From NCBI GenBank assembly GCA_023228245.1, contig JALOBN010000060.1, positions 1-13,802 on the forward strand: a stretch of 13,802 bases of DNA, in the 5' to 3' direction. Positions 2,953-9,266 of this stretch are shown in pieces (the stretch's first letter is position 1; each line of letters opens with the position of its first letter). Source of the stretch: Candidatus Pacearchaeota archaeon (GTDB lineage: Archaea > Nanoarchaeota > Nanoarchaeia > Pacearchaeales > GW2011-AR1). A program made the position numbers and the translations under genes. Under the pieces are notes generated by a model. The model was not told the DNA's origin and searched no databases. It saw only the letters and a list, made by a program, of their open reading frames with translations.

Positions 2953-3294
2953 ATGGAAGAGCTACGAATCAAGATCGAATCTGCCTTTGACAACGTCATC
3001 AATGCCAGGAAGGGGCTGCTCGATGCAAAAGAGGTCACCGCCAATGCGAAATGTGACCTAACGGATGCAGAGGTCCGGTATATCCTGTCGGGCCTGTCTG
3101 GAAAAAACGAGAAGGAGCGGGAAGCGCAATTGTGGCGTCTATGCGCGGGGTGGCGAGATTCGCTAACTGCCGCGGAAAAAGATGAGCGCGTGGCTACATT
3201 GGCGCTTGAGATGGCATTGGATGCACGTAGGAACCTGGAAAGCATATTGAAAATTGAGGAGATGGAGAAATTTGAGGAGATGGAGAAATGGTAG
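2953..3294 (+). CDS. Hypothetical all-helical protein, 113 aa
   Basis: The ATG at 2953 comes one base after the upstream stop. The protein is almost entirely charged helix (IESAFDNVINARKGLLDAKE, ... SGKNEKEREAQLWRLCAGWR, ... LALEMALDARRNLESILK) and is a likely coiled-coil or helical-bundle dimer. The 'KNEKEREA.L' segment resembles small phage helical proteins often located near recombination or single-strand DNA-binding genes; I treat that as a hint only. The last residues come from an 18-bp tandem duplication (3254-3289), giving EEMEKFEEMEKW. The stop overlaps the next start by 7 nt. Confidence 0.8.
   Translation: MEELRIKIESAFDNVINARKGLLDAKEVTANAKCDLTDAEVRYILSGLSGKNEKEREAQLWRLCAGWRDSLTAAEKDERVATLALEMALDARRNLESILKIEEMEKFEEMEKW
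3254..3289 (+). repeat. 18-bp perfect tandem duplication across a gene junction
   Basis: TTGAGGAGATGGAGAAAT occurs twice back to back (3254-3271 and 3272-3289). Each copy contains GAGGAG, so the ribosome site for the gene starting at ATG 3288 is doubled, and six residues are added in frame to the C-terminus of the upstream protein. The absence of any difference between copies suggests a recent slippage event. Confidence 0.9.
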
Positions 3295-5274: not shown

Positions 5275-5435
5275 CATTGCTAGCCATGCTCTCAAACGAA
5301 TTTGCCATTTGGCGGGGGCCTATATTAGCCATCATACTCATTGGTCTGGCAGCTACCGCTTGCCTTGCCTATATGACTGGCTACTATGACGGCTATCATG
5401 CCGGGGCTGTAATCTATGTCGGAGGGACCCCATGA
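5271..5435 (+). CDS. Single-pass membrane micropeptide, 54 aa
   Basis: The ATG at 5271 is in an ATGA overlap and the frame ends at TGA 5433-5435, itself overlapping the nuclease start. Residues 16-37 (GPILAIILIGLAATACLAYM) form one hydrophobic helix, followed by an aromatic-glycine stretch TGYYDGYHAGAVIY. There is no signal-peptide cleavage site. It is one of five tiny membrane proteins around the nuclease gene. A role in lysis, superinfection exclusion or membrane anchoring is possible but not shown. Confidence 0.65.
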   Translation: MTLLAMLSNEFAIWRGPILAIILIGLAATACLAYMTGYYDGYHAGAVIYVGGTP

Positions 5436-6253
5436 ACCGCATACAGGTTTGCATGGCCCCGGGCGAAGGAGCCCGCGAACAAGATTTGCGAATTGCCTTG
5501 TCGCATGATCCTAGGTTCGAGCCGCTGCAAATCGATTCCAATATACCGGTCGATCTGCGTTTCGAATTGCGAAACGTTTCATGGGAAGACACGCCGGATG
5601 GGTTGCTCACCGTTCCGAGATTGAGCTGTCATGTTTTGCATGTGGAGCTTAAACGTCCTGAGGACTTCGTACAATCCGTCCTGTCTGGTCACCTGGCAGA
5701 GCAGACTCTATCTATCAGAGAGAGCGGTTATAATGGATGTGTGGTCATCCTGGGGAGCTTAGACGACATATATGAGGCCATAAAGGACGCTTCCAAGTCG
5801 CGGGCTGGTAAGTACCTGAGGGGCAGCGAACTGTCTCAGGCAATAAGTAGCAACCACCTGAGATGCAAAAGCTTCAGGAAGAGGTCGTTTTTGAACGGTA
5901 TCCCAATATTCTATGTGGGAGACGACAGCGGGTTTTTCGATCACGTGGAGGAAGACGACAAAGGAAACAAAATCGGTGTCTGGAAAGATATACTGGAATT
6001 AGCACATGATTATTTGCTAGACGGTGACATGTTGGGGTTTAGGCAGCGCCCGGCTGAAAACGAACGTGAGATTTGCGCCGCTGCGACTTTGTTTAAAGGG
6101 ATTGGGTCAGATTCCATGCGGGTGCTTCTGAAGGAGTACACGTTGGCATTTGTGCCGAGGGGCATTTATGCGAAGCCAATAGAGGAGCTGCCGGGATGGG
6201 GACCTAAGCGATGTCAGATGATAACAAGCAGGGTTAGGATGGTTTACAGATGA
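5432..6253 (+). CDS. XPF/ERCC4-family structure-specific endonuclease with C-terminal HhH, 273 aa
   Basis: The start is the ATG at 5432 in an ATGA overlap. The central nuclease signature is VELKRPEDF (residues 71-79), matching the ERCC4 motif E-x-K-x3-D with E72, K74 and D78; an acidic loop (WEDTPDG, 51-57) lies upstream where the family has its GD element. The following AEQTLSIRESGYNGCVVILG is the usual helix plus strand after the motif. The C-terminus carries a double helix-hairpin-helix: FKGIGSDSMRVLLKEY and IEELPGWGPKRCQMITSRV. The family (Hef, XPF, Mus81) cuts flaps, forks and other branched DNA, usually as a dimer through the HhH. No helicase domain is present. In a virus it probably resolves replication or recombination intermediates before packaging. 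Confidence 0.85.
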   Translation: MNRIQVCMAPGEGAREQDLRIALSHDPRFEPLQIDSNIPVDLRFELRNVSWEDTPDGLLTVPRLSCHVLHVELKRPEDFVQSVLSGHLAEQTLSIRESGYNGCVVILGSLDDIYEAIKDASKSRAGKYLRGSELSQAISSNHLRCKSFRKRSFLNGIPIFYVGDDSGFFDHVEEDDKGNKIGVWKDILELAHDYLLDGDMLGFRQRPAENEREICAAATLFKGIGSDSMRVLLKEYTLAFVPRGIYAKPIEELPGWGPKRCQMITSRVRMVYR

Positions 6254-7205: not shown

Positions 7206-7441
7206 ATGCCACATCTTCCATTGGCTGGTATCTTTTGGAGCACAAGATAGATCCTGTTATCTTATCTGGCTTTCCAAAACGACTATCAGAGCTCCCGCCT
7301 CACCTGGTCACGCGCCTATCGACCAATGGCATGATCAGGAAGCATGAGCGCACATTGCAGCACGGCGCTTGGAGGTGGTTGTGGGTGGCAGGGCCGAAGT
7401 TGCCAGGATTGTTGTGCTGGATGGGTAAGCGAAAACGTTAA
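7202..7441 (+). CDS. Hypothetical protein, possible small winged helix, 79 aa
   Basis: The ATG at 7202 is in an ATGA overlap with the HTH gene. The middle (LPPHLVTRLSTNGMIRKHER) reads like the recognition helix and turn of a winged-helix domain, followed by a strand WRWLWVAGPKL and a basic end MGKRKR. It is the last gene of the long operon: T6 follows at 7443-7448. Its pairing with an HTH gene suggests regulation. The call is weak beyond the open frame and the coupling. Confidence 0.55.
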   Translation: MNATSSIGWYLLEHKIDPVILSGFPKRLSELPPHLVTRLSTNGMIRKHERTLQHGAWRWLWVAGPKLPGLLCWMGKRKR

Positions 7442-7442
7442 C

Positions 7443-7448
7443 TTTTTT
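7443..7448 (+). terminator. Poly-T terminator of the long operon
   Basis: Six T's two bases after the last stop codon (7439-7441) and before the next promoter. Archaeal transcription commonly ends at such T-tracts without a hairpin. Confidence 0.55.
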
Positions 7449-7455
7449 CTGAATA

Positions 7456-7473
7456 GTAAGCGATTATGCTTAC
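7456..7473. promoter_or_regulatory. 18-bp dyad operator, copy 1
   Basis: GTAAGCGATTATGCTTAC: perfect 6-bp arms around a 6-bp centre. It ends where the BRE of the following promoter starts (7473), a position suited to a repressor or activator. A second 18-bp copy with the same arms lies at 9281-9298 in the same position relative to a poly-T and a TATA box. A weaker look-alike with 4/6 arm pairing occurs at 7425-7442. Confidence 0.65.
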
Positions 7474-7489
7474 GTAAAAGCTTAAATAG
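7473..7489 (+). promoter_or_regulatory. Archaeal BRE/TATA promoter of the repeat-tract unit
   Basis: CGTAAAAG followed by CTTAAATAG (TATA about 7481-7488). The expected start near 7508-7513 is only some ten bases before the pentamer tract begins (7522), so the tract would be almost the first thing transcribed. Confidence 0.65.
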
Positions 7490-7521
7490 TAATAGATGCT
7501 ACTATACATTAGATGAGGCGC

Positions 7522-8119
7522 GTCTAGTCGCGTTGAGTCTAGGTGGCCTTGTTGCGGCGGGGCAGTTGCGGTTAGTCAAGTCCGGTCCTGTTATGTAGGG
7601 TCGACGCATGGCAGTTCCGTTGGGGCAGGGCAAGTCGGGTCAAGGCGGTGTATGGCTAGGCAGTTGAGGTTCGGCACGTCGTGTCTTGTTACGTCTCGTC
7701 AAGGCAGTCGCGTTGTGTCATGTCCCGTCCTGTTGCGTTCCGGCAAGTCTGGGCAGTCTCGGTAAGTCGTGGCTAGGCTATGCGTGGCAGTTGTGTCCCG
7801 GAAGGTCTAGTCGCGTTAGGTCCAGTTTCGGCAAGGCAGTCGAGTCGTGTTTAGGTAGGCATGGCAGATAGGTTGCGTTTTGCCATGTATGGTCTTGTCC
7901 AGTTGGGCTGTGCCTTGCTAAGGCAGTTGGGTCAAGTCTTGTCGTGTCTCGTCTCGCCCCGTTGCGTCATGTAGAGTCAAGTCGGGCCGAGTCCTGTTGA
8001 GTCTAGTCATGGCAGTCGAGTCGTGTCCAGTCGCGTCGGGTTGAGCCCAGTCGCGTCCTGTCTAGGCAGTCAAGTCAGGTATAGTTATGTCTCGGCGAGT
8101 CAAATCATGTCAAGGCAGT
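7522..8119 (+). repeat. GTCNN pentamer tract with GGCAGT reset blocks (about 600 bp, non-coding)
   Basis: Reading in fives gives long runs of GTCNN with free NN, for example 7981-8010 and 8015-8064. GGCA acts as a 4-nt unit that shifts the phase. GGCAGT starts at 7561, 7610, 7659, 7703, 7752, 7786, 7835, 7922, 8011, 8065 and 8114, with a GGCAGA variant at 7863. Five spacings are exactly 49 nt (nine pentamers plus one tetramer); the others are 44, 34, 54 and 89, all equal to 5n+4. Only 87 deviates, and it spans the variant. By eye there are about fifty GTC and one GAC, so the tract is strongly strand-biased. No frame is coding, since 5-nt units break the codon period. It probably forms the leader of the 8137 gene or a separate RNA; DNA roles such as an origin or partition site are alternatives. 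Confidence 0.9.
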
Positions 8120-8136
8120 CTATAGGAGAGATAAAA

Positions 8137-8766
8137 ATGGTTGCAAAAGCAAAGAAAACCGAGGTTCCAAGCGGACCTATAACATTGAAAAGAATCGCAT
8201 TACAGACTCTTAGAATACCCATTGTCGGAATATCCGAACTGATAGTTCATCAATGGTCTGAGAAAGCCAAACGGCAGATGCTGGAAAAGCAGATGTCTCC
8301 TGGCATCAAGAGCAAACGAGATGCCAAAGACCCCATAGCAGACTATGAGGCCACAAAATACAAGATGCCAGATGGATCGGATGGCTTCCCGGCGGTTGCC
8401 TTCAAGCAGGCAATGGTTGACGCTCTACGATTTTACGAAGGCGTTACAATGGTAATGGGCAAGATGGCATTTTTTGTTGAGGGCGATCTAGTAAAGATCG
8501 AAGGCGAACCTCGGATGAGGGAGGATATGGTAAGGCTGGAGACCGGGGTTGCTGATATCAGGCACCGTGCCGGGTACCCCAACTGGTCTGCGATGCTCAC
8601 CATAAGCTACAATCCTGAGCTACTTACCGCAGAATCGGTTCTTGCCCTGGTAGATGCGGCGGGCCGTATGGTGGGCGTGGGCGAATGGCGGCCATCTAGT
8701 AAGAAGAGGACGGGGCCTTATGGAAGGTTCCAGGTTGATGATAGCAGGGCGGTCGAAAAGTCATGA
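8137..8766 (+). CDS. Phage-type hypothetical protein with 'VGEWRP...G.fGRF' motif, 209 aa
   Basis: ATG 8137 is preceded by TAGGAGAG (8123-8130); the in-frame upstream extension runs through the repeat tract and is rejected. Landmarks: RIPIVGISELIVHQWSEKAK (27-46), DGFPAVAFKQAMVDALRFYE (82-101), AFFVEGDLVKIEG (111-123), RMREDMVRL (126-134), IRHRAGYPNWSAML (141-154) and VGEWRPSSKKRTGPYGRF (181-198). I recall this set of landmarks in uncharacterised proteins of many bacterial phages. The glycine-rich end faintly recalls the RAMP/Cas7 loop, an unproven idea. It sits behind a leader of about 630 nt and overlaps the next gene by ATGA, so the two products probably act together. Confidence 0.85.
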   Translation: MVAKAKKTEVPSGPITLKRIALQTLRIPIVGISELIVHQWSEKAKRQMLEKQMSPGIKSKRDAKDPIADYEATKYKMPDGSDGFPAVAFKQAMVDALRFYEGVTMVMGKMAFFVEGDLVKIEGEPRMREDMVRLETGVADIRHRAGYPNWSAMLTISYNPELLTAESVLALVDAAGRMVGVGEWRPSSKKRTGPYGRFQVDDSRAVEKS

Positions 8767-9266
8767 AGCAAACTTATGCATGGAAGATGGGGATGAGTAT
8801 CCCCGTCAAACCCGATGTCGCGGGAACGATATTCGAAAAGATCATAAAAGAGCGTGGCGAACTGAAGCCGTCGTTTGTGGTCGAGGAAGCAAAGCCTGTC
8901 AAATCTCCGCTACATCCATGTTTTGAATGGGACAACGAAAAGGCAGCTTTGGAATGGAGAGAACACCAGGCACGTCAATTGATACGGTATCATGTGGTAC
9001 TGATTCATCCAGACACATTGCCTAAATCGAGTGTTCCTATTGAAATCAATGCAAGAAATACTACAAGAACGTTTGTGAGTGTCAGAGAGCCAGACGGGAA
9101 AACGAAATACCTGCACGTTGAAACCGTGATGTCGGACGCGGTTCTCAGGGATCAATATATCAAGCGAGCATTTAAGGAGATCCAAGATTGGTCAGTTCGT
9201 TATGAGTCGATCGCAGAATTCGCTGGAGTCCGGGCGGAAATAAAGAAAATTAAGCTAGATTGATTA
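8763..9266 (+). CDS. Phage-type hypothetical protein, partner of the 8137 product, 166 aa
   Basis: The ATG at 8763 is in an ATGA overlap; the last sense codon ends at 9260 and TGA is 9261-9263, after which a poly-T follows. Landmarks: an N-terminal strand WKMGMSIPVKPDVAGTIFEK, then SPLHPCFEWDNEKAALEWRE (48-67), HQARQLIRYHVVL and later TRTFVSVREPDGKTKYLHVE, with a helical C-terminus. 'LHP.FEWDd.kAA..yR..qAR.LIr' is a pattern I remember from hypothetical phage proteins. Its tight coupling to the 8137 gene suggests a conserved pair. No catalytic residues can be named, and a role in nucleic-acid handling is inference. Confidence 0.8.

Follow-up and report, generated by a model that had tools for sequence, protein, structure and literature searches.

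What is the function of a DNA tract that keeps a five-base register over about 600 bp, with three nearly fixed bases followed by two free ones (NN)? Such a tract lies just upstream of the gene vipr in the 13,802-nucleotide contig JALOBN010000060.1 of assembly GCA_023228245.1 (Candidatus Pacearchaeota archaeon), the whole of which we call the window. We are highly confident that the tract is the guide-RNA (vrRNA) array of a VIPR system, in a virus predicted to infect the methanogen Methanothrix. It is predicted to hold about twelve RNA guides, used together with the adjacent Cas7-like protein to silence genes of rival viruses. VIPR systems, which combine a Vipr protein with vrRNAs, were described in a preprint of April 2026, which proposes them as the viral ancestor of CRISPR effectors and gives examples from E. 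coli and Pseudomonas (PMC13142463). That description supersedes the statement in the original prediction, made from the letters alone, that no element of such form had been described.

The five-base register was borne out by the identity at lag 5, which was 0.481 in the tract versus 0.272 +/- 0.019 in 500 dinucleotide shuffles (shuffle maximum 0.325, z 11) and at most 0.291 in any 600-base segment without tract overlap. Lags of 10, 15 and 49 also stood out against dinucleotide shuffles (z 7.0, 7.9 and 8.5). The tract-wide Fourier power at 5 was unremarkable (1.59 versus 0.75 +/- 0.45, shuffle maximum 2.59), because every tetramer shifts the phase. The eleven GGCAGT blocks had been reported with spacings of 49, 49, 44, 49, 34, 49, 87, 89, 54 and 49 nt, and these are exact. 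We rejected the 49-nt super-period read from them: the Fourier power at 49 (0.19) lies below the shuffle mean (0.56), lags 44, 49 and 54 are similarly strong (identity 0.42-0.43), and block lengths vary from 4 to 17 pentamers, as for guides of variable length.

A small hidden Markov model (HMM) shifted the limits of the tract from 7522..8119 to 7514-8117 (score 193.6) and segmented it into 109 pentamers of the form G-[T/G]-[C/T]-N-N, 11 GGCA tetramers and a few other off-length units. The motif is wider than the GTCNN first proposed: position 2 is T at 0.73 and G at 0.18, and position 3 is C at 0.68 and T at 0.28. The strand asymmetry estimated earlier at about fifty GTC and one GAC was counted as 52 and 1. 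The expectation of little self-pairing failed, since the predicted RNA fold of the tract was stronger than that of all 20 dinucleotide shuffles (z -3.0). No long open reading frame (ORF) was found to cross the tract, so a coding function was rejected, and an Rfam scan of the window at E 1 gave no match, hammerhead ribozyme included.

The protein encoded downstream of the tract links it to VIPR. Its family profile matches PDB 36pp, the SUSP1 Vipr, with E 5.4e-9, and a RAMP/Cas7 fold is predicted for it (Foldseek, VIA). The original prediction had proposed a filament or ring protein with a 5-nt footprint on RNA or single-stranded DNA; with a RAMP/Cas7-like gene adjacent, a filament on RNA fits well. 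We then asked how regularly tract and gene occur together. Among 51 loci fetched by vipr homology (7 viral contigs, 42 named genomes and 2 phage records, the latter opened out of 33 with a vipr match), 46 carry a tract on the vipr strand, with scores of 29-252, and the register adjoins vipr in loci from many phyla. The tract starts before vipr in 10 of the 46 and after it in 36. By contrast, the tract score did not exceed 12.8 in 98 contigs (1.01 Mb) chosen independently of vipr. There was no tract in L033 and L037, where the contig ends at vipr, or in L048, where the vipr match is partial; the score in L050 was weak (16.8).

Two kinds of locus in this set deserve mention in their own right. 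In L009 2480-2866 (Mycobacterium phage Donkeykong), the tract at 2498-2844 lies inside gp48, a gene annotated as 'hypothetical protein', and databases may therefore contain guide arrays misannotated as proteins. L041 5215-6067 and L051 5650-6714, both gut bacterial contigs, hold GGY arrays of great length, 853 and 1065 bases, with up to 194 pentamers.

Across the arrays segmented, GGCA or GCCA accounts for 226 of at least 290 off-length units, and in two cousin arrays GCCA replaces GGCA as the separator. Position 2 is rich in T (0.54-0.73) in six arrays, namely those of the window, L001, L002, L003, L004 and L031, and reaches at most 0.33 in the other 42. All six of these GTY arrays are located upstream of vipr. 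L031 is a Methanothrix metagenome-assembled genome (MAG) and has its promoter block in common with the window, L001 and L002; L003 and L004 are grouped with these four by their triplets and targets. The content of the arrays turns over between close relatives, in which the register is not lost. L001, whose Vipr is 95% identical to that of the window, keeps the register (score 150) and shares no guide of at least 8 NN. L002 (Vipr 92% identical) keeps it too; its first four blocks are those of the window, one with a single NN base changed, and it diverges afterwards. The one short run of NN pairs common to the window and L001, TC AA GT TA, is conserved in four otherwise dissimilar arrays (window 7756-7789, L001 2145-2177, L002 4769-4801, L031 4707-4739) and could be either an invariant component or a guide against a target that persists. 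The NN composition showed a weak preference for codon positions 1-2 in four of the six arrays, absent in L001 and L031, and was not used.

The decoding of the cousin arrays L003 and L004 bears on what the free bases do. When the guide common to L003 and L004 was scanned through the viral_contigs set with a one-base skip, nine contigs matched. Three of them (L060, L061, L065) are terminase genes hit at the same codons (E-I-P-A-x-K-C-P-R), where the third codon position is the one skipped; for the remaining six contigs, the match was out of phase with the longest ORF. A second L004 guide, which had played no part in choosing the contigs, matches the L060 terminase at 18 of 18 positions in the same frame. 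Relatives of this terminase occur in 18 of 50 genomes from the family of G001, a Methanothrix MAG; the family is presumably Methanotrichaceae. We then compared 44 guides, at skips of 0-3, with 541 kb of sequence surrounding 25 of the 29 sites found, using 20 rounds of shuffled-guide controls. Skip 1 gave 14 hits from 9 guides (shuffled guides 0-3), and the other skips gave 0 (skip 0), 1 (skip 2) and 0 (skip 3). Codon phase 0 of the longest ORF was seen in 13 of the 14. The guides with skip-1 hits came from L003 (2 of 5), L004 (4 of 8), L031 (1 of 6) and L001 (2 of 10), with none among the six of L002. Independent hits come from guides 1583, 1691 and 1426 of L004, 4659 of L003 and 4658 of L031. 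An earlier local scan had given 17 hits at skip 1 (shuffled 2, 0, 0), a figure inflated because some loci had been fetched using the guides themselves.

The targets of the L003, L004 and L031 guides are the terminase, the gene preceding it, whose relative in L153 matches DUF433 weakly, and a long replication ORF, whose relative in L154 has a primase/helicase PHROG. We claim no target for the two L001 hits, which lie in an unexplained short ORF and out of phase. A scan at the peptide level recovered these targets again; it also gave weaker single hits, for which we make no claim. Guide 4728 of L003 is a slightly closer fit to the gene just 5' of the array in the sister L004 than to L003's own copy, as though a rival's version were its aim. 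Read by the 1-nt-skip rule, guides of L003 and L004 yield genes for the terminase and for replication, located in presumed Methanothrix proviruses. The proposal that the register and not the sequence is selected is not supported, since the free NN carry guide information in VIPR and those of L003 and L004 decode to genes. Taken together, the original observation is confirmed and its interpretation partly supported.

How might the window array work? By analogy with the preprint's experiments on other members, an archaeal promoter would drive transcription of the array, which would form the leader of a vipr-vap operon; the RNA would be processed, and each pentamer would be bound by a single subunit of the Cas7-like Vipr. 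The fixed G-T/G-C/T bases would serve to anchor the protein. Base pairing would fall to the two free bases, so that along a DNA target two positions in three are read and one is skipped. GGCA, or GCCA in two cousins, ends each run of mostly 8-11 pentamers, shifts the register and would separate the guides. Where competing proviruses share the host, the guides would then turn down their genes for packaging and replication.

The window's own guides give a thinner picture. Guide g2 (numbering in the table) matches the primase-like ORF of L154 in phase, with mismatches at 2 of 18 positions. Guide g3 matches equally well, also in phase and with 2 mismatches in 18, in an ORF of L272 that belongs to the same family (43% identity); the site is P-loop-like, and relatives have GPGRNGKG there. 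That two neighbouring guides both meet one gene family in sequence comparison is suggestive and no proof. The 8-NN cores of four window guides occur in 41, 4, 14 and 6 of the viral_contigs, with no exact full-guide match. No target was found for g5, and no full-length target for g7 and g11, in the viral_contigs core scan and the 50-genome scan; the core scan found none for the centre of g10. We claim no target for g12, nor for g7 from its repeated 16/18 match to one virus family (11 of 14 contigs).

Several results weigh against our reading. None of the nine window guides of at least 7 NN matched in the 541-kb provirus scan. When the 50 genomes of the G001 family were scanned with at most two mismatches, g2, g5, g7, g11, g3 and g12 gave 2, 1, 4, 0, 10 and 7 hits, and their reversed-pattern controls 4, 4, 8, 0, 1 and 3; only g3 exceeds its control, with the other five at or near control level. 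Eight of the ten g3 hits were inspected: one is in phase in the primase-like ORF (L246/L272), two are in phase antisense (ORFs of 152 and 181 aa) and five have the longest ORF out of phase. The hits of the common L003/L004 guide are not independent, because the provirus set was reached via the terminase found with that guide. The scaffold is GTY, unlike the preprint's GGY, and the array shows no 3' tail, consecutive blocks being separated only by a GGCA tetramer. No tract was found in L005 with its full context present. Finally, vipr was found in only one of the 50 family genomes, so the Methanothrix host rests on one MAG contig.

We weighed three other explanations of the tract. It could be a regulatory leader on which an oligomeric RNA-binding protein, Vipr or one of the host's, sits on the repeated triplets and controls vipr-vap, in the manner of TRAP, with NN pairs that hold no target information. 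TRAP binds GAG/UAG triplets in leader RNAs, and the likeness extends to short spacers and one protein oligomer along the RNA. The six GTY arrays precede vipr and follow a conserved promoter-like block, an arrangement that would suit such a leader. We nevertheless consider it improbable and already disfavoured: most tracts in the vipr loci start after the gene, the NN content turns over in blocks, and the guides of the cousins correspond to genes only when read at skip 1. TRAP-binding leaders also differ in that the window has more than 100 units and separators, and spacers with sequence information in its cousins.

The tract could also act as DNA, as a partition, recombination or packaging site for a protein with a 5-base repeat, for which one could cite the terminase and portal genes in the window and the strand asymmetry. 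We think this very improbable, given that the linked protein is a RAMP of the RNA-guide type, that all 46 tracts lie on the vipr strand and that cousin NN pairs decode to genes. Hardly credible, to our mind, is a decayed minisatellite without function, maintained by replication slippage. It would account for tandem pentamers with slips and for the weak 5-base array that Tandem Repeats Finder reports at 7974-8057. Yet the fixed positions persist with NN free, whole blocks are replaced between close relatives, and the presence of the register beside vipr in many phyla and not in the 98 other contigs already contradicts it.

Table. Features of the probable guide array and its flanks (window coordinates).
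Feature	Coordinates	Strand	Basis or remark
Predicted promoter block	7440..7513	+	Mostly invariant in window, L001, L002, L031
Inverted repeat GTAAGC / GCTTAC	7456-7461 / 7468-7473		Within promoter block; coordinates checked
TATA-like CTTAAATAG	7481-7489	+	About 26 bases 5' of array start
Guide-RNA (vrRNA) array, probable	7514..8117	+	HMM score 193.6, segmentation
g1	7522..7564	+	Segmentation; 7 pentamers around odd unit GGTG, GGCA end
g2	7565..7613	+	Segmentation; 9 pentamers, NN GC TA AA CG CT AT GG GA AT; best in-phase match in L154 primase-like ORF
g3	7614..7662	+	Segmentation; 9 pentamers, NN CC GG AG AA GG AA GG AT TA; in-phase match in L272 ORF
g4	7663..7706	+	Segmentation; 8 pentamers
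g5	7707..7755	+	Segmentation; 9 pentamers
g6	7756..7789	+	Segmentation; 6 pentamers, contains NN word TC AA GT TA
g7	7790..7838	+	Segmentation; 9 pentamers
g8	7839..7866	+	Segmentation; short, 4 pentamers plus a single GGTA unit; GGCA of GGCAGA variant at its end
g9	7867..7925	+	Segmentation; 11 pentamers
g10	7926..8014	+	Segmentation; 17 pentamers; perhaps two guides after loss of a separator
g11	8015..8068	+	Segmentation; 10 pentamers
g12	8069..8117	+	Segmentation; 9 pentamers; last GGCA directly 5' of vipr leader
GGAGAG, likely vipr ribosome-binding site	8125..8130	+	Sequence
vipr	8137..8766	+	209-aa RAMP/Cas7-fold protein (predicted), phrog_4652
Candidate vap accessory gene	8763..9263	+	Overlaps vipr stop codon; phrog_15946 E 9.8e-19

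The block ahead of the array is one that we take to be a promoter from the archaeal spacing between TATA and start. Relatives of the candidate vap gene adjoin vipr in L006 and L007; its fold model is weak (predicted local distance difference test, pLDDT, 68), and no match to it was found in the PDB. Terminase and portal genes lie farther along the window, which therefore belongs to a tailed virus or provirus. No cas family was found in Pfam or PHROGs among 10 window ORFs or by PADLOC among 5 window proteins, and PADLOC matched none of these 5 to a known defence family. The tandem repeats detected in the window are short, unlike CRISPR; one of them, with an 18-base unit in 2.3 copies, lies where an ORF ends (3249-3289). 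At 5432-6253, a 273-aa ORF with ELKR and a helix-hairpin-like end has no Pfam or PHROG match, and we regard it as reminiscent of ERCC4-type nucleases. The segment 9264-10496 has negative GC skew, and its longer ORFs lie on the minus strand, unlike the remaining window.

On balance, we lean towards a broader view, in which archaeal viruses run their own VIPR branch with a tail-less GUY-scaffold array read guide by guide at GGCA slips. Methanothrix viruses would silence each other's terminase and primase genes, and the tetramer would be the end-of-guide mark of the whole branch, from archaea to actinophages. The cousin arrays support the 1-nt-skip code from independent sequence data. If our reading is true, comparing Vipr proteins that go with GTY arrays against those that go with GGY arrays can reveal the scaffold-reading residues, and the GGCA mark would make it possible to excise guides from unprocessed sequence and translate them into degenerate peptides. 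Metagenomes would then reveal which virus attacks which, and virus-virus conflict in hard-to-culture methanogens becomes testable from sequence.

Compared with class 1 CRISPR-Cas effectors (Csm3/Cas7), the locus is alike in its predicted protein fold and RNA-guide logic, RAMP/Cas7-like subunits being established to line up along guide RNA (PMC13142463). It differs in that no CRISPR repeats or cas genes were seen in the window, that the unit is 5 bases instead of 6 (every sixth position, according to PMC13142463) and that guide information would lie in the NN pairs only.

The closest likeness is to VIPR as presented in the main text of the preprint, in which free NN positions hold the guide information and a vrRNA has 9-16 repeats (PMC13142463), a range that covers 7 of the 12 window blocks. 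Common to both are a gene for a RAMP-fold protein of about 20 kD, beside which the window has a candidate accessory gene, tandem pentamers whose NN are free, carriage by viruses, those of archaea included, and decoding with a 1-nt skip at the codon wobble position to targets in competing mobile elements, here seen in cousins. The scaffold of VIPR is GGY or 'a related consensus', and the main text, with reference to supplementary figures, mentions 'staggered arrays with overlapping vrRNAs' (PMC13142463); the majority triplet in the window is GTY. In type II VIPR, the SUSP1 clade and one of seven types, every repeat tract is followed by a structured 3' tail that does not vary (PMC13142463). We did not file the window array there, because only a GGCA tetramer stands between its blocks, with no such tail. 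Its guides are packed tail-less and delimited by GGCA, or GCCA in cousins, tetramers that the main text leaves unmentioned, and the cousin targets lie in presumed Methanothrix proviruses. We read the window as a VIPR-type locus of a likely archaeal virus with a variant scaffold and tail-less, tetramer-delimited guides. What it adds to the main text of the preprint is a GTY scaffold in six arrays, tail-less guides delimited by GGCA or GCCA, and the decoding of L003 and L004 to presumed Methanothrix provirus genes.
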